Assembly (NCBI RefSeq): GCF_026000115.1
Contig: NZ_AP026867.1
Span: forward strand, 7,479,001 to 7,543,000
Length of the DNA stretch: 64,000 bases
Reading direction: 5' to 3'
From: Aureispira anguillae
Lineage (GTDB): Bacteria; Bacteroidota; Bacteroidia; Chitinophagales; Saprospiraceae
Below are positions 1-12,008 of this stretch, piece by piece. The position numbers and the translations under genes are program-made. Below the pieces are notes generated by a model. That model was not told the DNA's origin and ran no database searches. It saw only the letters and a list, made by a program, of their open reading frames with translations. The first letter of the stretch is position 1; the number at the start of each line of letters is the position of its first letter.

Positions 1-1769
1 TCTTGATTTTGGCGATTTTGGTTGTGGACAATAGATTCTAAGCCACTAAACAACATGCTAGGACGCATTAAATCTAGGTGTTGGTTAGAGGTGTTGTTGA
101 CATAAACCAAGCTATTTTCGTCCTGTGGCAAATATTTTTTGTAATATTCAGAACGAGTCATAGAGGTTGCCATCATCTCATTAAATCCAGAGCTAGTTAA
201 TAAATCTGCAATTAGATTTTTTACTTTGAATGGATTTGGGCTTGGTGCAAAAGAAAGCACAGAACTAACCGTGGTTGGTGTTTCTACCTTATTATACCCA
301 TAGATTCTCAAAATCTCCTCAATCACATCTGCATCTCTTGTCACATCCACCTTATTGGTAGGAATATCTACGGTCAATGCATCGGCTGTTTCTTCAAGGA
401 TGTTCATATCCAAATAGCCCAAAATCTTTTTAATGTCTTCTTTTGGAATATCTGCACCAATCAAATCCGTTACTTTTTCAAAACGAACGTTTACTTGAGC
501 ACGTTCTACAGGAGTTGGATACAAATCGATAACTTCTGAGGCAATCTTACCCCCTGCATATTCTTGAATCAATAAGGCAGCACGTTTTAAGGCATAAAGC
601 GTACCATTAGGATCTACTCCTTTTTCAAAACGAGTAGCCGCATCTGTACGCAATAAATGACGCATACTAGAGCGACGGATAGAAATGGCATTGAAGAAAG
701 CCGATTCTAAAAAGATATTAACGGTTTTATCCGTAACTCCTGATTGAATGCCTCCAAAAACCCCTGCAATACACATTCCATTGCCTTGACCATCACAAAT
801 CATCAAATCTTCGCTGCTCAATTCACGCTCTACTTCATCTAAGGTGGTAAATTTAGTTTTATCAGCTAAATTTTTGACAACAACAGATTGATCCGTTATT
901 TGATCATAATCAAAGGCGTGTAAGGGCTGTCCCAATTCATGCAACACGTAATTCGTAATGTCTACCACATTGTTTTTTGGCTCAATACCAATTGCTCTAA
1001 GGTGATTTTGCATCCATACAGGAGAATCCTTGATGGTTACTCCTTCTATACAAACACCTGAGTATCTAGGACAAGCTGCTGTGTTCTCAACGGCAACTTT
1101 AATTGCTAGATTGTTATTGTCGATTGTGAATTTGCTATTGTCAGGCTGTGTAAATGTACCTTGATCTTTGTAATTGGTTTTTAGCGCTGCTGCCAAATCA
1201 AAAGCAGTTCCTAGATGCCCTGTGGCATCAGAACGATTGGGCGTTAAGCCAATCTCATAAACAACATCACGAATGACTTGTTTGGAGAAATATTGAGCAG
1301 CAGGCATTCCTACCACTGCTTTTTCATCTTCTATAATAATAATACCATCGTGAGAAGTACCCAAACCGATTTCATCTTCTGCACAAATCATCCCTAAAGA
1401 TGCCTCTCCACGAATCTTGCCTTTTTTAATTTTGAAAGATTCCCCTTCAGGAGTGTACAGTAGGGTACCAACAGTAGCAACAACAACTTTTTTGCCAACT
1501 GCTTTTGGTGCATTAGGTGCGCCACAAACGATTTGCAAATGCTCATCTCCACCTACATTTACCGTGGTAACAGACAATTTATCCGCACCTGGGTGTTTTT
1601 GACACGTTAAGACTTCGCCAATCACTAAACCAGCAAGGCTACCTTTAATGGTTTCGTAGATTTCCATTCCTTCAACTTCCAATCCTATATTGGTCAGAAT
1701 ATCACTTACTTCGTCTTTTGATTCTTTTACGTCAACGTATTGTTTTAACCAATTTAGTGAAACTTTCAT
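1..1769 (-). CDS. pheT: Phenylalanine--tRNA ligase beta subunit (5' part; runs off the window)
   Basis: This is the beta chain of the cytoplasmic alpha2-beta2 phenylalanyl-tRNA synthetase, which helps charge tRNA-Phe and carries the editing site. The reading frame is open from the ATG at 1769 to the left edge, about 589 codons, against about 800 in the family, so the C-terminal part lies outside. The start MKVSLNWLKQYVDV is typical. An N-terminal EMAP/tRNA-binding-like domain follows (GADKLSVTTVNVG, IVCGAPN), then TPNRSDATGH, DITNYV and QPLHAFDYD of the B3/B4 region, and MCIAGVFGG. A B5-like stretch comes near the window edge. No pheS is visible here. Confidence 0.96.
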   Translation of the reverse strand, partial: MKVSLNWLKQYVDVKESKDEVSDILTNIGLEVEGMEIYETIKGSLAGLVIGEVLTCQKHPGADKLSVTTVNVGGDEHLQIVCGAPNAPKAVGKKVVVATVGTLLYTPEGESFKIKKGKIRGEASLGMICAEDEIGLGTSHDGIIIIEDEKAVVGMPAAQYFSKQVIRDVVYEIGLTPNRSDATGHLGTAFDLAAALKTNYKDQGTFTQPDNSKFTIDNNNLAIKVAVENTAACPRYSGVCIEGVTIKDSPVWMQNHLRAIGIEPKNNVVDITNYVLHELGQPLHAFDYDQITDQSVVVKNLADKTKFTTLDEVERELSSEDLMICDGQGNGMCIAGVFGGIQSGVTDKTVNIFLESAFFNAISIRRSSMRHLLRTDAATRFEKGVDPNGTLYALKRAALLIQEYAGGKIASEVIDLYPTPVERAQVNVRFEKVTDLIGADIPKEDIKKILGYLDMNILEETADALTVDIPTNKVDVTRDADVIEEILRIYGYNKVETPTTVSSVLSFAPSPNPFKVKNLIADLLTSSGFNEMMATSMTRSEYYKKYLPQDENSLVYVNNTSNQHLDLMRPSMLFSGLESIVHNQNRQNQ

Positions 1770-1869
1770 GGTCTATATTTATATTGTTAATAGTAGTTTC
1801 TAAAAATAAAAGCCAAAGATACAAATTTTCCTAGATTTTAATATTAGAAGTTGTTTAAAATAATCGTTA

Positions 1870-2056
1870 GTTCTATGTACAGGGCAAACTAAAAACAAAG
1901 TGCTCACGAGCAAAGCGAGCTAAAGTTTTTAGTATAAAATATAGAACCTTTGCTTAATGATGATTTGTATTTTAGGTCATGCTAATTCTTTGGTATGCTA
2001 TACCAAGCATACTTGTTCGCTTTGCTCATGAGCCAGCAAGCTGTGTCCTGTACTCA
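1870..2056. repeat. Nested intergenic palindrome
   Basis: The 17-bp arms 1902-1918 and 2017-2033 pair with one mismatch (GCTCACGAGCAAAGCGA against TCGCTTTGCTCATGAGC). They are enclosed by outer arms with GTACAGG and CCTGTAC. Near the centre is a hairpin, TTGGTAT-GCT-ATACCAA, at about 1990-2006. The element lies in the 820-bp space between pheT and the next gene and encodes no credible ORF. A similar TTGGTA/ATACCAA core is found near 31720. It is probably a dispersed non-autonomous element or a processed RNA structure; the function is unknown. Confidence 0.6.
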
Positions 2057-2187
2057 ATAGTTAGTTTGAACCTATCCATAAGAAAGCGTTTGTTTGCATT
2101 GTTTGTGAAGCTATTTTATTTTTTTTAACAGTTTATTAGCTGAATTGTACTGTTCATTAGAAAAAATGTCGCATTCGAAGAATGCAG

Positions 2188-2218
2188 TTGCGAGGTCTTT
2201 CTAAAAGGCCTATTTTTG
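2188..2218 (+). promoter_or_regulatory. Promoter of small-RNA-like unit 1
   Basis: TTG (2188-2190), a 20-bp spacer, then TATTTTTG (2211-2218) match the Bacteroidota consensus TTG-N19/20-TAnnTTTG. The 45 bp upstream (from about 2142) resemble the sequence before the promoters at 2473, 3797, 4095 and 4392. Confidence 0.6.
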
Positions 2219-2224
2219 TATTAA

Positions 2225-2361
2225 CAAATAAGGAAGTGAAGATGCTTGATTAAACAAAAACCTTTGAAATGATAAGCTAAACGTTAATACCCACAAAACA
2301 ATCCTAAATCCATGCAATCATGAAGAAGGTAGGCCAATCGATTTTCGATTGGCTTTTTTTT
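2225..2361 (+). ncRNA. Small-RNA-like unit 1
   Basis: The predicted transcript is about 137 nt. It starts about 7 nt after the TATTTTTG box and ends in an intrinsic terminator (stem GCCAATCGA/TCGATTGGC, loop TTT, eight T). Its 3' half (from AATCCTAAATCCATG, about 2299) is nearly the same as in the four other copies at 3575-4575, while its 5' half differs. No conserved ORF is present. That it is transcribed is inferred from the promoter and terminator alone. Confidence 0.55.
2333..2361 (+). terminator. Intrinsic terminator of unit 1
   Basis: A perfect 9-bp stem (2333-2341 with 2345-2353) with a TTT loop is followed by eight T. The same hairpin closes the units ending at 3684, 3981, 4278 and 4575. 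Confidence 0.8.
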
Positions 2362-2472
2362 GTGCTAAGGGGAGCGATATAACAAAGACTGTCCATCAAA
2401 AAACTTAAAAAAACGCTTTACTGGTTAAGTTGTGTTATTCATTAGAAAAATTGTAGCATTCAAAAAAAACAG

Positions 2473-2503
2473 TTGCAAAGGGAATGAAGAAGGGCTAGAT
2501 TTG
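2473..2503 (+). promoter_or_regulatory. Promoter of the cysteine-rich lipoprotein gene
   Basis: TTG at 2473-2475, a 20-bp spacer, then TAGATTTG at 2496-2503. The 50 bp before it (2424-2472, containing TTCATTAGAAAAA and GCATTCA) are a diverged copy of the module in front of the small-RNA-like units. The expected 5' leader to the ATG at 2590 is about 80 nt. Confidence 0.65.
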
Positions 2504-2589
2504 TGTTGTAAACAAAACCAATAAATATAAGTGTTTTGTAAAATAAATTTGTTTTAAATATTAAATTAAAAAATTAAACTCAGTTAAAC

Positions 2590-3276
2590 ATGAAGAATTT
2601 ATTTTTATTGCCTCTATGCTTTTTAAGCATATCTATTATAGCTTTTTCTTGCAAAAAAGATACTGTTGAAATTGATACATTAGAAAGCAGCGAAAGCAGT
2701 GAAAGGAGCGAATTAATAAGTACGCTATCAATTGATGGTCAGTTAATAGAGACAGAAGACGATATAAAAGCTGACCTTCAACTTTTCAAGGATGGGACAA
2801 TAGAGGGTTCACTGAATCTATATGGCCCCCAAACAGTAAAAGTTAAGGCAAAGGAAAGCGAAGAAACAGGAATTTCAAAAATTGAAGACAAGGGAAATTC
2901 AATGTATCATGTTACGAAAGATGGAATTATTCATATATTAAAAAACGTTAGTATTTCGAATGGCCTTATTACAGGTGATTACATGACAGAAAACAGTGAA
3001 GGAATCGCTTCTGTTAGTTTCAGAATGGCCTCTAGTCTTATAACTGAAGATATGAATATAGAATATGGCATCAATGAAGCTTTCCCGTGGTTAATTTTCC
3101 CTGCTATAGGTGGAGTTATCACAGTAGTAAATTGTGCTTATGAAAGAAGCGCAGCTCGTTCAGCTTGCCACAACTCATACAATCAGCAAATGTTCACTTG
3201 TGGATGTTCCTGTATAATGAACTTCAGTGCTGGCTTCTGTGGTGGGGACTGCGATATAGATTGTACTTACGAATAA
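2590..3276 (+). CDS. Cysteine-rich lipoprotein, unknown function
   Basis: A 228-residue protein with a lipoprotein signal (MKNLFLLPLCFLSISIIAFSC; lipid-modified Cys at about 21), then an acidic linker. The middle is predicted beta-rich, with a phrase like a repeated-strand domain (DGTIEGSLNLYG). The last 50 residues hold eight or more cysteines (CAYERSAARSAC, CGCSC, CGGDCDIDC), suggesting a disulfide-knotted or metal-binding tail outside the cytoplasm. I do not recognise the family. It is followed after 10 nt by a tiny membrane-protein ORF and then a terminator, so the two probably form one transcript. It shares its promoter module with the adjacent small-RNA-like units. Confidence 0.8.
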   Translation: MKNLFLLPLCFLSISIIAFSCKKDTVEIDTLESSESSERSELISTLSIDGQLIETEDDIKADLQLFKDGTIEGSLNLYGPQTVKVKAKESEETGISKIEDKGNSMYHVTKDGIIHILKNVSISNGLITGDYMTENSEGIASVSFRMASSLITEDMNIEYGINEAFPWLIFPAIGGVITVVNCAYERSAARSACHNSYNQQMFTCGCSCIMNFSAGFCGGDCDIDCTYE

Positions 3277-3286
3277 GTAAAACATT

Positions 3287-3409
3287 ATGATAAATCAAAA
3301 ACAAAATACAGAAAGAGAGCCTTTTATTAATAATAGCCTTTGGTGTTGGATTGCTCTTTTTACTGCTTTAGGTATTAGTGTATTAATTATGCTTTTTGAC
3401 AAAATATAG
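3287..3409 (+). CDS. Small single-span membrane protein (40 aa)
   Basis: The ATG at 3287 is 10 nt after the lipoprotein stop and the TAG is at 3407-3409. The protein begins MINQKQNTEREPFINN and continues with one hydrophobic segment of about 23 residues (WCWIALFTALG.. to ..IMLF), ending DKI. The charge pattern fits a single-span inner-membrane peptide. Position before the terminator at 3422 supports co-transcription with the lipoprotein. The function is unknown, and at this size a chance ORF cannot be excluded. Confidence 0.5.
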   Translation: MINQKQNTEREPFINNSLWCWIALFTALGISVLIMLFDKI

Positions 3410-3421
3410 TGATCTATAATC

Positions 3422-3455
3422 AGAGCGTAACATTTTTGGATGTTGCGCTCTTTTT
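3422..3455 (+). terminator. Intrinsic terminator after lipoprotein/mini-protein pair
   Basis: A 12-bp stem (AGAGCGTAACAT with ATGTTGCGCTCT, one G-U pair) with a short T/G loop is followed by a T run at 3451-3455. Confidence 0.8.
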
Positions 3456-3574
3456 CACTTTATTGCTCAGGCAAAAGACAAAATACATCATTGAACAACT
3501 AGCGATCTATTTTTAGAGAAATTGTTTACGTTTTAATTGACGACTTTTGGGGATCTAATACTTAGCTATGAAAG

Positions 3575-3684
3575 AGATGAATATGCCTTTTGAGTGATGT
3601 GCTAAACCTTAGCGCTCATAAAATAATCCTAAATCCATGCAATCATGAAGAAGGTAGACCAATCGATTTTCGATTGGCTTTTTT
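3575..3684 (+). ncRNA. Small-RNA-like unit 2 (5' part degraded)
   Basis: From about 3575 this matches units 3-5 (ATGAATATGCC, CTAAACCTTAGCGCTC, AATCCTAAATCCATG), and it ends with the same hairpin. One base change opens the outer stem pair (GACC for GGCC), and there are six T. Unlike the other copies there is no recognisable TTG-N20-TAnnTTTG upstream, so this copy may be silent or read from elsewhere. Confidence 0.4.
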
Positions 3685-3796
3685 ATGAATTTGGGGTTTA
3701 TATGCTAAAGAATCCTCGGCAAAAAAACTTGAAAAAACGCTTCGTTGGTTGAATTGTACCATTCATTAGAAAAACTGCATGATTCAGAGAAAATGG

Positions 3797-3827
3797 TTGC
3801 AAGGAGCCTCCAAAAGGCCTATATTTG
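3797..3827 (+). promoter_or_regulatory. Promoter of small-RNA-like unit 3
   Basis: TTG 3797-3799, a 20-bp spacer, TATATTTG 3820-3827. The conserved upstream module starts near 3720. Confidence 0.7.
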
Positions 3828-3833
3828 TATTAA

Positions 3834-3981
3834 AGAACTAAAACAACTAAGACGCATGAATATGCCTTCTGAATGACGAGCTAAATCCTAGTACCCTCTA
3901 AACCTTAGCGCTCATAAAATAATCCTAAATCCATGGAGTCATGAAGAAGGTAGGCCAATCGAAAATCGATTGGCTTTTTTT
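3834..3981 (+). ncRNA. Small-RNA-like unit 3
   Basis: The predicted RNA of about 148 nt is almost identical to units 4 and 5. Visible features are a GCAT-GAAT-ATGC mini-hairpin, a weak pairing of GAGCTAA with TTAGCGCTC, TCCATGGA, and the final hairpin GCCAATCGA-AAA-TCGATTGGC followed by seven T. The only in-frame ATGs give peptides of under 15 codons, and one of these overlaps the terminator, so an RNA product is more likely than a protein. Confidence 0.6.
3954..3981 (+). terminator. Intrinsic terminator of unit 3 (AAA loop)
   Basis: A 9-bp perfect stem, loop AAA (TTT in units 1, 2 and 5), seven T. Confidence 0.8.
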
Positions 3982-4094
3982 ATGAATTGTGGGGCTGTAT
4001 GGTAAAGACTGATTGGCAAAAAATCCTTAAAAAAACGCTTCATTGGTTGAATTGTACCATTCGTTAGAAAAACTGCATGATTCAGAGAAAACGA

Positions 4095-4125
4095 TTGCAA
4101 GGAGCCTCCAAAAGGCCTATATTTG
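4095..4125 (+). promoter_or_regulatory. Promoter of small-RNA-like unit 4
   Basis: TTG 4095-4097, a 20-bp spacer, TATATTTG 4118-4125. It lies 298 bp after the equivalent element of unit 3. Confidence 0.7.
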
Positions 4126-4131
4126 TATTAA

Positions 4132-4278
4132 GAACTAAAACAACTAAGACGCATGAATATGCCTTCTGAATGACGAGCTAAATCCTAGTACCCTCTAAAC
4201 CTTAGCGCTCATAAAATAATCCTAAATCCATGGAGTTATGAAGAAGGTAGGCCAATCGAAAATCGATTGGCTTTTTTT
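4132..4278 (+). ncRNA. Small-RNA-like unit 4
   Basis: A near-identical tandem copy of unit 3, predicted at about 147 nt. It ends in the hairpin at 4251-4271 (loop AAA) followed by seven T. The whole unit including its upstream module repeats with a period of 297-298 bp. Confidence 0.6.
4251..4278 (+). terminator. Intrinsic terminator of unit 4 (AAA loop)
   Basis: GCCAATCGA-AAA-TCGATTGGC plus seven T. Confidence 0.8.
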
Positions 4279-4391
4279 ATGAATTGTAGGGCTGTATGGT
4301 AAAGACTGATTGGCAAAAAATCCTTAAAAAAACGCTTCATTGGTTGAATTGTACCATTCATTAGAAAAACTGCATGATTCAGAGAAAACGA

Positions 4392-4422
4392 TTGCAAGGA
4401 GCCTCCAAAAGGCCTATATTTG
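4392..4422 (+). promoter_or_regulatory. Promoter of small-RNA-like unit 5
   Basis: TTG 4392-4394, a 20-bp spacer, TATATTTG 4415-4422. Confidence 0.7.
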
Positions 4423-4428
4423 TATTAA

Positions 4429-4575
4429 GAACTAAAACAACTAAGACGCATGAATATGCCTTCTGAATGACGAGCTAAATCCTAGTACCCTCTAAACCTT
4501 AGCACTCATAAAATAATCCTAAATCCATGGAGTCATGAAGAAGGTAGGCCAATCGATTTTCGATTGGCTTTTTTT
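4429..4575 (+). ncRNA. Small-RNA-like unit 5
   Basis: The last tandem copy, almost identical to units 3 and 4 (for example AGCACTC for AGCGCTC). The terminator loop is TTT, as in units 1 and 2. It faces the convergent small gene at 4624-4851. Confidence 0.6.
4548..4575 (+). terminator. Intrinsic terminator of unit 5 (TTT loop)
   Basis: GCCAATCGA-TTT-TCGATTGGC plus seven T. Confidence 0.8.
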
Positions 4576-4623
4576 ATTTTGAAATGATTTAATTAGGGAG
4601 AATCTGGGATTTATAGGATATCT

Positions 4624-4851
4624 TTATTCATCTTTATTGGAGACAGGAGGGGTCTTAGCTTTTACAATTTCACAATTTCCTTCTAATTCCTTATAGGCAA
4701 ACATATAAGTAGTGATGGCTTTTTTTGCATCTCTCTCAGAACCGTAAATTTTAGCTTGTTTTTTAGTACCTAAAATAGCATCGATTGTTGCAATTCTTCT
4801 ATTGCGAGTACGTTTGATATATCGATGCCCAAATTTTACATAGTAACCCAT
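4624..4851 (-). CDS. Small basic hypothetical protein (75 aa)
   Basis: MGYYVKFGHRYIKRTRNRR leads a basic, probably cytoplasmic protein without a signal peptide or membrane span. The middle (KKQAKIYGSERDAKKAITTYMFAYKELEGNC) reads as a helix-rich segment, and the tail is charged. I do not recognise a family. It is read toward the small-RNA-like array and is convergent with unit 5. The 327 bp upstream, to the stop of the response regulator, hold no other gene. The open frame and composition support a real gene, but there is no operon partner. Confidence 0.6.
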   Translation of the reverse strand: MGYYVKFGHRYIKRTRNRRIATIDAILGTKKQAKIYGSERDAKKAITTYMFAYKELEGNCEIVKAKTPPVSNKDE

Positions 4852-5178: not shown

Positions 5179-5868
5179 TTATTGGGGAGGAACATTAAAA
5201 ATAAAACCAACTCCAAAAACATTTTCAATGCTTAAGTTTGAATCTGCCTTAAGGTATTTACGAATTTTCGAGATAAATACATCCAAACTCCTGCCCAAAA
5301 AGTAATCATTTTCTCCCCATAAATCAATTAACATATCTTCTCGTTTGATAAGGTGGTTTCGATGATCAAATAAATATTTAAGAATACTGCTTTCTTTTTC
5401 CGTCATTCGTTTGGTACAATTATTAATCGTTAAAGACTGGTTTTTGAAGTTAACAATATAGTTACCAATTGAAATAATCTCCAATTGAGTATCTTGCTTG
5501 TTTTGGAGCACTCTACGAGTAATGGCTTTAATTTTCCAAAGTAATTCTTCTTCGTCAAATGGTTTGGTGATATAATCGTCAGCTCCTAACTTATAGCCTT
5601 TTAATTTATCCTCTTTTAGTGATTTTGCAGTGATAAAGATGATAGGAACTTTTGTATTGTGTTTTCGAATTTGTTTTGCCAATGAAAACCCATCCATTTG
5701 AGGCATCATTATATCCAATAGACATAAGTCAAAATGATGCTTTTGAAATGCTTTTAATGCTAAAGCTCCGTCTTTGCAAAGCTTTACACTAAAACCTTCT
5801 GTTTCTAAATAATCGACCAAAAGAATTCCTAAATTAAGATCATCTTCAGCAAGTAGAATATTAAACAT
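5179..5868 (-). CDS. OmpR/PhoB-family response regulator
   Basis: A 229-residue DNA-binding response regulator. The receiver domain (about 1-120) has the acidic pair EDD near the start, the phospho-acceptor Asp in LLDIMMPQMDG (about 52), the Thr of FITAK and the Lys of ITKPFD. A winged-helix output domain (about 130-227) ends with DVFISKIRKYLKADSNLSIENVFGVGFIF, the usual recognition helix and wing. It starts 2 nt after the stop of the kinase gene, so the two are co-transcribed. The four 11-bp repeats at 7147-7190 in front of the divergent gene are a good candidate for its binding site. Confidence 0.95.
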   Translation of the reverse strand: MFNILLAEDDLNLGILLVDYLETEGFSVKLCKDGALALKAFQKHHFDLCLLDIMMPQMDGFSLAKQIRKHNTKVPIIFITAKSLKEDKLKGYKLGADDYITKPFDEEELLWKIKAITRRVLQNKQDTQLEIISIGNYIVNFKNQSLTINNCTKRMTEKESSILKYLFDHRNHLIKREDMLIDLWGENDYFLGRSLDVFISKIRKYLKADSNLSIENVFGVGFIFNVPPQ

Positions 5869-5870
5869 TT

Positions 5871-7097
5871 TTAGTTATTGGGTAATGTGATTGTAAATCT
5901 TGCTCCTTTTCCTTTTTCGCTCTGAAGCTCAATAGATCCTTGGTGCAATTCAATAATTTTTTTTAAGTAGGCTAGTCCCAGCCCAAACCCCTTTACATTA
6001 TGAACGTCTCCAGTTGGAATTCTAAAAAACGTATCAAATATTTTCTTTTGATACTCCTTTTCAATGCCAATCCCTTTGTCTGTGATTATAATGCTTAAAA
6101 ATTGCCCTTTATTAATGGTTTGGATCGATATTTCAGTTGTTTTTTTAGAATATTTAATGGCATTATCTATGAGGTTGTGTAATGCGTTGGTAAGGTGTGT
6201 TTTATCTGCTGTTATTATAGGGTTTTGAGCGTCTAAGTGCAAAGCAAGATTTCCTTTTTTGTGCTCAATTTGCAAGCGAATGCATTTGAGCGAACCAGAA
6301 ATTAGTTCGTGGACATTTAAGCGTGTCTTTTGTAAGGGAATTTCTCCTCGTTCAAGTCCAGTCATGCCTAAAACCTGTTCCACTTGGAGTCTTAACTTTT
6401 CATTCTCTTCCAATATAATTTCTGAATAGTGTCTGAGTTTATCTTCTTTTTTTAGCGCTATATTTTTTAAAATCATTTTTCCTGCCAGTGCAATATTGGT
6501 CAAGGGAGTTTTTAATTCATGGGTCATATTATTCATGAAGTCCGTTGTGTGTTCGGATATTTTCTTCTCCTTAAGAAGGGATAAAGTAGTTTGCCAAAAC
6601 ATAATCAAAACAACGAGAATTAAAATAACAGAAGTAATGAACATAGAACCCATTTCTGCTATGATAAATTGTTTTTTGTCAGAGAAACTTAACTTCAATT
6701 CAAACCGCTGCTGATTGGCTAATCTTTCCAAATGTTTATTGTAGACATAATTGGTGGATGCATTGGCGCTATAAGTTGTTGGTTTGGCGATAATGAAAGA
6801 ATAATCAATATGAAAATTATAAAAATTCATATAATGGGTAAATAAAGAATCTATTTTGTGCGCTACATTTTCTTCTAATTTGGAAATACCATCAGGACTG
6901 ACACAAGCTCCAATTTTTTGACAGGTTTCTTGGTCGGCTGAAATTGCTTCCGTTGTTTTAGAAAGGACTATATTGGCTTTTTCATTGAATAATTCTTCCT
7001 TGATATTGGCAGCTTGAAAGATCCAATTTACTTGAATAATCAATATAACGGATAAGGCAACTGAAGAAAGGGCAATGAATAAATAAGTTCTGTTCAT
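5871..7097 (-). CDS. Membrane sensor histidine kinase
   Basis: A 408-residue two-span sensor kinase. A first membrane helix (about 5-27) and a second (about 150-172) enclose a periplasmic sensor region with two cysteines (CQKIGAC) that could form a disulfide. Next are the dimerisation/phosphoacceptor box MTHELKTPLT (His about 194) and the ATP-binding domain with N box DNAIKYS, G1 DKGIGI and G2 GFGLGLAYL. Its partner is the response regulator immediately downstream. The gene is divergent from the secreted protein at 7260, which may be its target. The sensed signal cannot be told from the sequence. Confidence 0.95.
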   Translation of the reverse strand: MNRTYLFIALSSVALSVILIIQVNWIFQAANIKEELFNEKANIVLSKTTEAISADQETCQKIGACVSPDGISKLEENVAHKIDSLFTHYMNFYNFHIDYSFIIAKPTTYSANASTNYVYNKHLERLANQQRFELKLSFSDKKQFIIAEMGSMFITSVILILVVLIMFWQTTLSLLKEKKISEHTTDFMNNMTHELKTPLTNIALAGKMILKNIALKKEDKLRHYSEIILEENEKLRLQVEQVLGMTGLERGEIPLQKTRLNVHELISGSLKCIRLQIEHKKGNLALHLDAQNPIITADKTHLTNALHNLIDNAIKYSKKTTEISIQTINKGQFLSIIITDKGIGIEKEYQKKIFDTFFRIPTGDVHNVKGFGLGLAYLKKIIELHQGSIELQSEKGKGARFTITLPNN

Positions 7098-8279: not shown

Positions 8280-11200
8280 ATGGCCTTCGAAGATGAGGAA
8301 GTACAAGAACAGCAATTTAGTCAAAATATTAACGACACAGAAAATACTGCTGTAGACCCTGTTGATGACAATAATAATACAGTTGATACTAATAGCCCAA
8401 TCCCCCCAGATGTAAATGATAAGGGAGAGGTTGTGCGCATACAAACCAAAACCATAGAAGTGGGCAATTCTGAGTGTTATGCACCAACTTCACATGAAGA
8501 GTTGGACGAGTTGATCTCTAAAGAGGTCATCAAAGAAAAACACAAAGACTTATTTGTATTCAAATATGAAACTTGGCACGGTGAATTACCAAAAACTGCT
8601 ACAGGCTCAGAAGAAGATGAAAAACAAAAAGAAAAAGTGGGGAATGGGCTTATTGATATTAATAGTTTGCTTCCTGAGTTGAATAATTCTGTTTCGCCAG
8701 ATCAAGATACTAGCCCTAAAATAGATCTAAATTCTTTGTTAGAAGAAGATCGTACGAAAACAACTAAGGGAACAACTCTAGAGAATGGTGGCAGTCTTGC
8801 TCCAAAAACGCTGAAAGAAGAAGTAGTGTTTAAGGATACCCCAGAAACTCAGACCAATTCGACCATTCCTAAAGCACTTAAAGAAAAGGTAGAACAACTT
8901 TCGGGAGTATTATTGGACGATGTAGTCGTTCATTATAACTCTTTAGAACCTTTTAAGTTTAATGCCAATGCAATTACTAGAGGGAATGAAATCTTTTTGG
9001 CGCCAGGGCAAGAGGCATGTCTAGAAGAGGAACTGTGGCATGTGGTTCAGCAAAAACAGGGATTGGTTAAACCTACTGGAACAGAAAATGGAGAACCCGT
9101 AAGTGAGTCGCCTAGTATGGAGCGTACGGCAAAAGCTGGACAGCCCCAACAAGGACAAACGAAACAGAACGATCAAGAACAAGAGTTGGTACAGAAAAAT
9201 GACGACAAACTAACCTTCTTGGTAAAAGTAAAAGGGAAGTTAACAGGTCGAGAATTGATCATTTTGATAGAAAACCAAATTTATGGCGAGACAATTGGCT
9301 CTAGTTGGAGCATCAATGCTGTAGATGTTGATCCTACGGCTACTTTTGGCAAGGAGGGACAAACAATTACTTATCATGTAAGTATCCCTGCCGCAAAATA
9401 TCAGTATTATAGATCCAAGAGTGCTACGGCTAAGGGCGTTGAATTGGATGAAAATGAAAAAGTTAAGGGTGCAGAAAAGAGATCTGCTGAATTAGAAAGT
9501 CTCCCCAAAGCAACGCAAGATGCCCTGATAGAAGAGATCAATCGTAGATTCCAAGAAGCTTCAGGGAAAACAAAGAAAGAGAAGGGGGATGAGGCGCTTT
9601 GGAATGTTTATCGAGACGAGGTGTTGGCCCAACGAGAAAAAGTGATGAATCTTTCCGATAAAGCTAAACAATTGGTGAAGACAGGAGAGGAAGGAGGATT
9701 GGTCATTGCTCCTAAAGACTATCCTAGGATGATTCAAATGCTAGAAAAAATAGAGCAAATGGACAGCAGTCTGGTGGCAGAATATGCTAGTAGAATTTCT
9801 GGAAAGGCGACTTCTATTGAACAGATGGAACAAAGCGTAGACGACTTTGTTAAAAAACAAGCAACACGAGTTGATAATAAAAAGGAGCGGACAGCTATAG
9901 AAAATGAGTTGTTTGCTACGGAGGGATTATTTGATGACCTTCAGACTTATCGTTCATTGGCGATAGGAGGGGGCATTTCAATGGGGAGTGGATTGGCTTC
10001 TCTAGAGTACTATAATGACTTAAGTAAGGAAGTCAAAAAGTATGGCTTTAAAGACTTAGATGATTATAGCAATAAAATTGACGATTACTTAGCTTCTTTT
10101 CAACAAGAATCTGTTGCTACAGGAATTGGTTTGTTACAAAAGTATGAGCACTTTTTGTACGAAGAAGAACAGCGTTATTTAAGTACGGCAGATGCCAAAC
10201 AACTAGGCGATGCTGTTGCTCAATCTGGGGCAAAAGAAAATTATGAAAAATCGCAGCAAAATGCTTCTAATGCTGCCATGGCAAGTATGGCTATGGGGAC
10301 AACGACTAGAACTAGTGATGCGGTTGAAAAAAATATTCAAGGTTACAGAGATAAATCTAAGGAGCAGAAAGAAGCTGCTGATAAAGCAATGAAAGGCTTT
10401 GGTAAGGATCATCCTTTGCTTAAGGATCCTGCTTTTAATCTCGAAAAATTGAGCCAACAATCGCCTGAAGATACCAAGGCTTTTTTACTTGCCTATATTC
10501 AAAAACAAAGAGAGAATATTGCACAAACGAAAGCCAAGATGGAAGGAGACAAAGAGTTTGTCTTTACGTTAGATAATTTGATGCAACATATGTATCAGCA
10601 GGAGGGGATAACCAAAGGTTCTATCCAAGACAAGGCGCTACAGGATCATATTGGGGGGATAAAACTCAAGGATACGTTGATTAGCGTTGGAATTGCTTTA
10701 TTGGCCATTGGTTTGGGATTGGTTAGTGGAGGTGGTGGCACTGTTGGGGTGATGGCTGCTGTTGGTGGTGCTGCATTGAGTGTTTATGATGTGACCAGAG
10801 AATTTGGTAAATACGCCGATGAAAAAGCAGCTCATGATGTCGGCTTGCTGTCCAAAGATCCAAGTTTTGCTTGGGTAATCTTAGCTATGGTCGGCGCTGG
10901 ATTGGATTTTGCTGCAGTTGCCAAATTGCTTACTCCGCTCAAAGTTCCAGTGGAAGGCTTTAATGAATTGGTCAAAACAGATCCAGTAAAAGCCTTGTCT
11001 GAGTTGGATAAGAAGTTAAATGATATTGCTGAGATAGATGCTAAGTTAAAGGCTAATATTCTAAAACGAGCAGAGAATAAGGCAGCTTACAAAAAGGCAA
11101 AAGCTGAATTAAAAGGAATAACAAGAGTAGAACTAATCCCTTATTCCACGGAATTGTTTACTTGGGCAGTTTATGCGGTAAAGGATGGTATAACTCGTGT

Positions 11201-12008
11201 GGATGATTTCTTTCGTTGGCTGAAAAAGGAAGAAATTATCAAAAGCATTAGCAAAGAGGGGTTAAGCACAGATGAACTTAAAGCATTGCAAATATCTCTA
11301 AAACAGGCACAAGATAATATAGCATTTGTAGATAATGTACTGACTCCTAACTTAGCCAAACGACTTTCAGCAGAGCCTCAGCGTTTTGTATCTTTAGGTG
11401 AAAAATTCAATGAAGAAGAGGTACTAAAATTGGTTAATGCAGGGAAAGGTGCTAATTTGACGGATTTAGAAATAGAAGATATTATTCTAAATGCTTGCCG
11501 TAAAAACAAGGACTTTGATGTCAATGAAGTAATTCAGCAAATGTCTACTTGGGCAAAAGTACAAAAACAAGGCTTCCCAACAATTTTTGAAAATTTAGAA
11601 GACTTTCAAAAATTTAGTGCAACAGTAAAGAGTTTGGCTAAAAAGTGGGATCTTCCTGCTGATAGTATTATTATTCAAGGGAGCTCTTTGCGAGTAGAAG
11701 ATGTTAGCAAAATAGGAGATTTGGATGTATCAATTATCGTAGATCAAAAAACGTTTGATGAATTGGTAGAAAGATTTAAAAATAATGTTAAAAGTGGGAA
11801 AGTAGAGAAAAGAATAGGTAATAATGGAAAAATAGGAGGGAATGATATGTTTAATGGAGGACCTTCTCTAGTTCGTGATTTTTATGATTCTTTTAAAACA
11901 GTTTTTGGTGTTGAATTTCCAGTAAAATTGGGCGTTCCTAAAATCCAGATTTCTGTAATCGAAAAAGGTTCAAAATTAGGTGTTAGTCCTTTCTTAGAGT
12001 TAAAATAA
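8280..12008 (+). CDS. DUF4157 (eCIS-core-like) polymorphic toxin with nucleotidyltransferase-like tip
   Basis: A 1242-residue protein without a signal peptide. Residues 1-190 are acidic and low-complexity, with two IDxNSLL motifs. About 195-262 is a DUF4157 domain (DVVVHYNS, NEIFLAPGQE, EEELWHVVQQKQ). The usual HExxH of this family is EExxH here, so zinc protease activity is doubtful. A long helical region follows (about 380-790), then a glycine-rich hydrophobic stretch (about 800-836), more helix, and a C-terminal domain (about 1110-1242). That last domain has IIQGSSLR..IGDLDVSIIVD, the GS-x(n)-DxD pattern of the pol-beta nucleotidyltransferase fold. DUF4157 proteins are known cargo or associates of contractile injection systems. 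The variable tip and adjacent small gene point to a toxin/immunity pair. Confidence 0.8.
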   Translation: MAFEDEEVQEQQFSQNINDTENTAVDPVDDNNNTVDTNSPIPPDVNDKGEVVRIQTKTIEVGNSECYAPTSHEELDELISKEVIKEKHKDLFVFKYETWHGELPKTATGSEEDEKQKEKVGNGLIDINSLLPELNNSVSPDQDTSPKIDLNSLLEEDRTKTTKGTTLENGGSLAPKTLKEEVVFKDTPETQTNSTIPKALKEKVEQLSGVLLDDVVVHYNSLEPFKFNANAITRGNEIFLAPGQEACLEEELWHVVQQKQGLVKPTGTENGEPVSESPSMERTAKAGQPQQGQTKQNDQEQELVQKNDDKLTFLVKVKGKLTGRELIILIENQIYGETIGSSWSINAVDVDPTATFGKEGQTITYHVSIPAAKYQYYRSKSATAKGVELDENEKVKGAEKRSAELESLPKATQDALIEEINRRFQEASGKTKKEKGDEALWNVYRDEVLAQREKVMNLSDKAKQLVKTGEEGGLVIAPKDYPRMIQMLEKIEQMDSSLVAEYASRISGKATSIEQMEQSVDDFVKKQATRVDNKKERTAIENELFATEGLFDDLQTYRSLAIGGGISMGSGLASLEYYNDLSKEVKKYGFKDLDDYSNKIDDYLASFQQESVATGIGLLQKYEHFLYEEEQRYLSTADAKQLGDAVAQSGAKENYEKSQQNASNAAMASMAMGTTTRTSDAVEKNIQGYRDKSKEQKEAADKAMKGFGKDHPLLKDPAFNLEKLSQQSPEDTKAFLLAYIQKQRENIAQTKAKMEGDKEFVFTLDNLMQHMYQQEGITKGSIQDKALQDHIGGIKLKDTLISVGIALLAIGLGLVSGGGGTVGVMAAVGGAALSVYDVTREFGKYADEKAAHDVGLLSKDPSFAWVILAMVGAGLDFAAVAKLLTPLKVPVEGFNELVKTDPVKALSELDKKLNDIAEIDAKLKANILKRAENKAAYKKAKAELKGITRVELIPYSTELFTWAVYAVKDGITRVDDFFRWLKKEEIIKSISKEGLSTDELKALQISLKQAQDNIAFVDNVLTPNLAKRLSAEPQRFVSLGEKFNEEEVLKLVNAGKGANLTDLEIEDIILNACRKNKDFDVNEVIQQMSTWAKVQKQGFPTIFENLEDFQKFSATVKSLAKKWDLPADSIIIQGSSLRVEDVSKIGDLDVSIIVDQKTFDELVERFKNNVKSGKVEKRIGNNGKIGGNDMFNGGPSLVRDFYDSFKTVFGVEFPVKLGVPKIQISVIEKGSKLGVSPFLELK

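Follow-up and report, generated by a model that had tools for sequence, protein, structure and literature searches.

In a 64-kb stretch of the Aureispira anguillae genome (contig NZ_AP026867.1, positions 7,479,001 to 7,543,000 of a 7.8-Mb genome; hereafter the window, in which all coordinates below are counted unless stated otherwise), we examined an array of five short units, u1 to u5, each ending in the same intrinsic terminator. The array most likely represents a real and new family of small RNAs (sRNAs) with an unusually complete candidate circuit around it. The units are probably genes of a structured sRNA family that is controlled by a LytTR-type regulator and acts in trans via repeated short motifs. 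A sequence-only reading of this DNA had proposed a multicopy, independently transcribed regulatory RNA, and the covariance search and the compensatory changes described below favour that proposal.

The terminator common to all five units, CCAATCGA(TTT/AAA)TCGATTGG followed by a T run, was already described in the sequence-only reading, and a terminator scan of positions 1800-4700 recovered all five stems (2331-2355, 3659-3677, 3952-3976, 4249-4273, and 4546-4570 for u1 to u5 respectively) among 10 terminator-like sites, compared to 1.5 (sd 1.3) in shuffles. The four Bacteroidota-type promoters that it had reported were likewise found. They have the form TTG-N20-TAnnTTTG, presumably the sigma-ABfr type, and start at 2188 (u1), 3797 (u3), 4095 (u4), and 4392 (u5), with u2 lacking one and a further promoter of this form at 2473 upstream of a lipoprotein-like gene; with spacers of N19-21, there are 13 TTG-TAnnTTTG sites in the whole window on both strands. 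A sigma-70-type promoter scan was uninformative here (8 sites vs. 10.5 in shuffles). If transcription starts just after the TATATTTG box, u1 and u3-u5 would produce transcripts of about 141-155 nt; for Aureispira sp. CCB-QB1, the predicted RNAs measure about 250 and 360 nt. On the plus strand, the u1 promoter (TTG-N20-TATTTTTG, 2188-2218) precedes a predicted transcript at 2222-2362, the u3 promoter (TTG-N20-TATATTTG, 3797-3827) one at 3828-3982, the u4 promoter (4095-4125) one at 4126-4279, and the u5 promoter (4392-4422) one at 4423-4576, and the recognisable part of u2 spans 3576-3687. Units u3-u5 are 97-99% identical, and their spacing of 297-298 bp agrees with the period given earlier.

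As a check on such a family, the sequence-only reading had suggested a covariance-model search, which located homologous units in further Aureispira genomes, at the corresponding locus. Among nine genomes of the genus (G000-G008, G000 being the window's own genome), the model of the units gave five matches in G000, two each in G003 and G008 (E ≤ 7.4e-8), and one in G006 (E = 0.0013); every one of these lies at this locus. Four of the nine genomes, the window's own included and G006 weakly, are unit-bearing by this measure, and no unit was found in G002, G004, G005, and G007. G003 and G008 have two units each, flanked by pheT (assigned by likeness to the window, with other open reading frames (ORFs) intervening) and by an orthologue of a 75-aa ORF (4624-4851 in the window, minus strand), which is 90-92% identical beside the units in G003, G008, and G006. 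In G006, the end of one unit adjoins the 75-aa ORF at the start of a contig that cuts the unit, and in a fifth genome, G001, the control element described below and the first bases of a unit adjoin pheT, also at a contig start. By eye, no unit is present within about 1.5 kb on either side of the 75-aa homologue in the distant genus members G004, G005, and G007.

Away from this locus, covariance matches in the genus had E values of at least 0.066, and reverse-strand matches on the units' own palindromic terminators went down to 0.033 and 0.064. A family-wide covariance search returned 9 of 120 genomes at E ≤ 0.01, including the window's own; the other eight were rejected, as their alignments read as ordinary terminators. 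In a DNA search of 40 relatives, 31 had a match at E ≤ 1, only short ones outside the genus, where the best (G013 and G032) span the terminator only. As a separate observation, a stretch of about 83 nt with a CCCATGAA hairpin and CTAAACCC is present in the G006 unit (L046, 1-180) as two near-identical tandem copies.

The bodies of the units are A-rich and G-poor, and when u1-u5 and the two G003 units are folded at minimum energy, a long-range helix, P1, forms between the 5' part of the body and the bases directly before the terminator. P1 is composed of P1a, a small internal loop, and P1b. In u3, P1a is UGCCUUCU/AGAAGGUA (3863-3870/3945-3952) and P1b is AUGAC/GUCAU (3873-3877/3938-3942), with the terminator beginning at 3952; the corresponding arms in u1 are at 2259-2266/2324-2331 and 2269-2273/2317-2321, with the terminator from 2331. 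The arms of the two G003 units (UUACCUUU/AAAGGUAA plus AUAGCCA/UGGUUAU in one, UUGCCUUUG/CAAAGGCAA plus AUAAUCA/UGAUUAU in the other) change letters but still pair, and thus the pairing is kept. In the G006 unit the 5' arm lies beyond the contig.

Compensatory changes, which the sequence-only reading had named as a test of conserved structure, were counted in nine aligned matches, of which seven are distinct. Changes on both sides occurred in 7 of the 21 pairs compared to 2.4 in shuffles, and were distributed over P1a (5 of 8 pairs) and P1b (2 of 5), with none in the eight terminator pairs. Paired cells amounted to 97.3% (90.8% shuffled), and the covariation score of 0.302 (0.160 shuffled) was equalled in none of 500 shuffles and was at most 0.109 after sliding the partner by 1-3 columns. 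MAFFT alignments A2 and A7, which misplace parts of the RNAs, were excluded from these counts. Because the covariation alignment had been fitted to the structure, an independent pairing check was made, in which the 5' region paired best with its own 3' arm in 5/5 rows (u1 and u2 have a common arm, and u4, u5, and the G008 copies were not entered), by a margin of 0.7 kcal/mol for one G003 unit. Judging from these alignments, P1 is retained through compensatory changes. The folding energy of the body is below that of 95% of shuffles in seven of ten RNAs, the others being u1, u2, and u4.

A second shared feature lies upstream of the promoters. The four unit promoters and that of the lipoprotein gene carry TTCATTAG-like repeats, spaced by 21 bp, at fixed places (-56, -35, and -14) relative to the TTG box. 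This control element occupies 2132-2187 in u1 and 2417-2472 in the lipoprotein gene (TTT/TTC/TTC in both), and 3741-3796, 4039-4094, and 4336-4391 in u3, u4, and u5 respectively (TTC at all three places), all on the plus strand. Twelve promoters from the window and other genomes of the genus, picked for having the repeats and not for their distance to the TTG box, all have TTC at -35 and -14, and 10 of the 12 have it at -56, u1 and the lipoprotein gene having TTT instead. Among the 13 promoter-like sites of the window, five have TTC at two or more of these places, and these are u1, the lipoprotein gene, u3, u4, and u5. Over all DNA examined, 15 of 83 distinct promoter-like sites have TTC in register, compared to 0-2 in 18 other registers; this count takes near-identical species apart and includes DNA chosen for the element, and the window figure is the unbiased one. 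The strict form of the element was found in three stretches of GTDB r220, all titled Aureispira (the window's own genome was perhaps left out of that collection). A looser pattern gave more hits than its reversed control in G000 (15 vs. 8), G008 (20 vs. 7), G003 (21 vs. 10), G002 (14 vs. 6), G006 (9 vs. 7), G001 (8 vs. 6), and G005 (5 vs. 3), and fewer in G004 and G007 (1 vs. 4); many single hits of the looser pattern are chance.

LytTR sites, in the excerpt of PMC4847170, consist of a pair of 9-11-nt repeats, 11-13 nt apart, that have no common consensus, and the LytTR regulator YpdB binds GGCATTTCAT repeats. In LytTR systems covered by an excerpt of PMC6193735, direct repeats are located beside the -35 box with a spacing of mostly 12 bp. 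The Aureispira promoters have the same layout, i.e., repeats with a 21-bp period just upstream of the -33 box (TTG), and a LytTR-type regulator is the most likely putative binder of the element.

The element also marks a set of other genes, which we consider a candidate regulon. A second sRNA-like locus with the element (locus 2) was found in G000, G006, and G003 behind glyA and a pssA-like gene for a CDP-alcohol phosphatidyltransferase; on its other side lies an M61 peptidase gene in G000 and G006, and a different ORF in G003 (gene names are from Pfam searches of the G003 and G000 proteins). G008 has a homologue of the locus. Furthermore, the element is present upstream of a LamG-domain protein in G006 (TTC at 3/3 places), of two G003 LamG proteins and another G006 one (2/3, aligned to the -7 box to within a single base and without TTG), of a 670-aa secreted-looking protein without a Pfam match, and of two OmpH-like proteins, named by eye (3/3 in G003, 2/3 in G008). 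One of the G003 LamG proteins carries a type IX secretion system (T9SS) sorting domain. The promoter of a propeller-type sensor kinase gene has the repeats in register at 3/3 places in G006, where the contig ends within the kinase gene. Its relatives in G000, G003, and G001 are 73-83% identical, and each is followed by a response regulator gene (250 aa). The regulators of G000 (C1, about 5670492-5671244, complement) and G001 match Pfam LytTR (1.9e-15 and 3.7e-15), and the G003 one was assigned by likeness. The phased repeats, locus 2, the probable LytTR regulator, and the control that the lipoprotein gene shares with the units had escaped the sequence-only reading.

Taken with the folds, these features suggest the following circuit. 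Each RNA would start at its Bacteroidota-type promoter and would enclose an A-rich, G-poor body by a closing helix (P1a, internal loop, P1b), with the intrinsic terminator directly after P1. A LytTR-type response regulator, bound to the three repeats (21-bp spacing) that immediately precede the -33 box, would switch transcription on, and may also activate its own sensor-kinase gene, the locus-2 sRNA gene, the lipoprotein gene between u1 and u2, and the genes of secreted surface proteins. The RNAs would then act in trans, several CUAAAC- and CAUGAA-type motifs in each capturing a common partner.

The motifs were counted in nine RNAs, 1884 nt in all, taken from both loci; near-duplicates (u4, u5, and the G008 copies) were omitted. 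CTAAAC and CCATG each occur 18 times, compared to 1.7 and 1.1 in shuffles, in 8/9 RNAs, and no count as high was obtained in 1000 shuffles for either; CATGAA occurs 15 times (0.9 in shuffles) in 9/9 RNAs, and CTAAA 2-9 times per RNA, also in 9/9. By eye, CCATGAA sits in a hairpin loop in several of the RNAs that have it. Repeats of the CTAAA and CATGAA type in several copies fit the capture of a common partner at several sites. Tentatively, we prefer an RNA-binding protein as the partner, which the RNAs would titrate; multi-site pairing with mRNAs would be nearly as likely. The two are set almost level because a stretch of about 11 nt just before P1b, CCTAA-N1/2-YCRTG, could be an antisense seed. 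It is present in 6/6 locus-1 RNAs entered and in 0/3 locus-2 RNAs.

That stretch also gave more weight to a rival, antisense sRNAs with unpaired body stretches pairing with mRNAs probably near the starts of envelope-protein genes. Such RNAs have precedents, since excerpts of PMC7602753 and PMC11697453 describe multicopy sRNAs acting on envelope mRNAs (LhrC1-5 under the two-component system LisRK, with targets including an adhesin and OppA, and FopS on susC-like mRNAs, respectively). The absence of the putative seed from all three locus-2 RNAs counts against it, and so do the pairing searches, weakly, as they cover the window only, which is <1% of the genome. Neither GTTTAG nor TTCATGG occurs within -60 to +30 of the start of any of the 46 window ORFs that reach 150 aa (0 times each, with 1.16 and 0.16 expected), and pairing at start codons was dropped as a mechanism. 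Four of the six best window pairings of u3 were tested, and were matched by 7, 18, 1, and 13 of 100 shuffled RNAs. An LhrC-like or FopS-like antisense family is possible, and is the strongest of the rivals, but we regard the LytTR-controlled family with repeated motifs as the better explanation.

In operation, the units would be most like two-component-controlled multicopy sRNAs (LhrC1-5, CsrB/C, RsmY/Z) and the RNAs of AgrA-like regulators. LhrC RNAs have several short unpaired motifs each, which are CU-rich, and LisR is an OmpR-type regulator. RNAs of the CsrB/RsmZ type have many copies of a short motif, with GGA in loops, and the copy number is variable. VirR is a LytTR protein, and the AgrA, VirR, and FasA systems usually have one RNA gene without tandem copies. 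The five-member LhrC family of Listeria is under a two-component system (PMC7602753, excerpt), as the units would be, and copies and a control element are likewise present here, whereas the motifs of the Aureispira units, CUAAAC and CAUGAA, differ from those of LhrC by description rather than by sequence comparison, and the pairing search within the window gave nothing. CsrB/CsrC (BarA-UvrY) and RsmY/RsmZ (GacS-GacA) are described in the same excerpt as redundant RNAs under two-component control by which a protein is titrated (PMC7602753). The units resemble them in having several copies of one short motif per RNA in variable number (CTAAA, 2-9), but no GGA-containing hexamer is among the 24 top enriched rows of the unit and locus-2 RNAs. 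AgrA-RNAIII, VirR-VR-RNA, and FasA-FasX are pairs in which AgrA-like regulators drive a regulatory RNA (PMC3673130, excerpt), as proposed for the units, although they are Gram-positive systems with two repeats instead of three.

The FopS/GibS RNAs of Bacteroides thetaiotaomicron, with their partner RbpB, are also multicopy Bacteroidota sRNAs with intrinsic terminators and sigma-ABfr-type promoters (PMC11697453, excerpt). However, the 14 FopS paralogues in that excerpt bind RbpB, an RNA recognition motif (RRM) protein, and consist of a single-stranded 5' stretch and a terminator, whereas the Aureispira units have the closing P1. In our search, an RRM_1 match (E ≤ 1e-5) was found in 1/9 genus genomes, the unit-free G002, and in none of the unit-bearing ones, and membership of the FopS/RbpB group was rejected. 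Rfam 15 gave no match in the window at the gathering threshold, and a permissive search of 1800-4700 gave nothing usable; Qrr (RF00378), also multicopy two-component-controlled sRNAs, matched each of the five units at chance level (17.3-21.7 bits, E 0.78-8.5), with a best unit score of 21.7 bits compared to a gathering threshold of 50. Among the paper titles surveyed, none pointed to an RNA of this sort in Aureispira.

Several points weigh against a LytTR-controlled, trans-acting sRNA family. Unit u2 has no recognisable promoter, and folding z-scores are weak for u1 (-0.9), u2 (-1.6), and u4 (-1.9). The counts of compensated pairs come from seven distinct rows, three of them near-identical (u3-u5), in an alignment fitted to the structure. 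The motifs were picked post hoc, and their counts are not independent given the internal duplication in G006; the full CCATGAA is in 5/9 RNAs and is absent from the window units u1-u3 and from locus 2 of G000. A target search over 54 window ORFs gave no signal for the lipoprotein mRNA, which ranked 37, 47, and 48 for u1, u2, and u3 respectively. The LytTR assignment derives from site layout and gene position, the register at the kinase promoter is incomplete (2/3 in G003 and G001, 1/3 in G000), and the looser element pattern also gives chance hits, with 14 vs. 6 in its control in the unit-free G002. Finally, by eye, the bodies contain short ATG frames, such as MNMPSE and MNMPFE in u3 and u2.

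These frames bring up a second rival, namely that the units encode tiny peptides, as dual-function RNAs or small-protein genes, with CATGAA as a start codon in good context. CATGAA is present in 9/9 RNAs, and frames of 8 and 10 residues were seen by eye at locus 2 of G006 and G003. By eye, however, neither the length nor the sequence of the frames is constant from copy to copy, and they overlap P1, which is itself under structural constraint, and we consider peptides unlikely. A related candidate, a leader of a ribosomally synthesized and post-translationally modified peptide in which CTAAAC would be Leu-Asn codons, was dropped, the frame not being kept (by eye) in locus 2 of G000. Slightly less likely again is that the units are decaying tandem duplicates of one promoter-terminator cassette, the RNA itself having little function. 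Recent duplication alone would explain the likeness of u3-u5, and u2 has no recognisable promoter, but other species also have units at this locus, their P1 showing compensatory changes, and the second sRNA-like locus has the same element and motifs. Ends of a mobile element or a leader that attenuates a protein gene, the two readings by which the earlier proposal could have failed, would account for repeated units with identical inverted repeats, but are very improbable, as the units were found at one locus only in their own genome, a locus common to other species, instead of several unrelated sites as copies of a transposon end or miniature inverted-repeat transposable element would, and u1, u3, u4, and u5 each end in their own terminator, with either a new promoter or a gene in convergent orientation coming next.

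For the structured family under LytTR control, a broader role can be imagined, although we regard it as speculative and rather doubtful. It would be a global switch resembling Gac/Rsm or agr but made of unrelated parts, in which an autoregulated LytTR two-component system and redundant RNAs at two loci use CUAAAC/CAUGAA motifs to titrate an RNA-binding protein of a type for which titration by RNA is not yet known, and thereby switch surface-attachment or predation programmes.

Among the neighbouring genes, pheT (phenylalanyl-tRNA synthetase beta; 3-1769, minus strand, cut by the window edge) and the 75-aa ORF serve as syntenic markers. The protein gene that the sequence-only reading had placed between u1 and u2, with a terminator of its own, is indeed there: a 228-aa lipoprotein-like protein with a Cys-rich C terminus (2590-3276, plus strand), followed by a 40-aa ORF (3287-3409) and a terminator stem (3422-3451, plus strand). 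Its promoter is TTG-N20-TAGATTTG (2473-2503, plus strand), and its upstream region has a repeat copy in common with the units (D2, 2397-2509, 73%). The protein has no Pfam match at E ≤ 1, and PADLOC gave no match for it or for the 75-aa protein. Its homologues in the nine genus genomes are itself and a partial one in G008 (36% over 77 aa), for which no control element was seen by eye in the 260 nt upstream. A response regulator/histidine kinase pair encoded at 5179-7097 was considered and set aside; the G003 relative of this regulator sits elsewhere in the G003 genome. The window also contains an imperfect inverted repeat between pheT and u1 (1902-2033, 40-nt arms 73% complementary) and a 1242-aa protein with an eCIS_core (PF13699) domain (8280-12008, 25.8 bits).

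By eye, similar insertion-like stretches with inverted ends lie upstream of the G008 OmpH-like gene (L134, on C17) and behind locus 2 of G008 (L105), and the G003 copy of locus 2 is without such a stretch. Another, far more conserved sRNA-like transcript was found at L011 4641-4813 (about 593640-593812 of C1 in the window's own genome), L043 4553-4716 (minus strand), L047 1936-2109, and L048 4558-4723 (minus strand), with a mean column identity of 91% in four genomes and a matching promoter hit also in G008. It has a TATATTTG promoter region with about 33 nt in common with the units, a CTAGCAG...CTGCTAG terminator, three pairs with changes on both sides, and no Rfam match at E ≤ 0.1. A second copy of its start is present in the own genome (L011 3260-4440), upstream of two paralogous secreted-looking proteins of 123-126 aa.

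To our knowledge, sRNAs have been little studied in Bacteroidota outside gut species, and Hfq and CsrA are mostly absent from this phylum. The units would provide the marine genus Aureispira with a covariation-supported sRNA family that comes with a named candidate regulator and regulon, and if their motifs bind a protein, they would expose an RNA-binding regulator in a phylum mostly without Hfq and CsrA.

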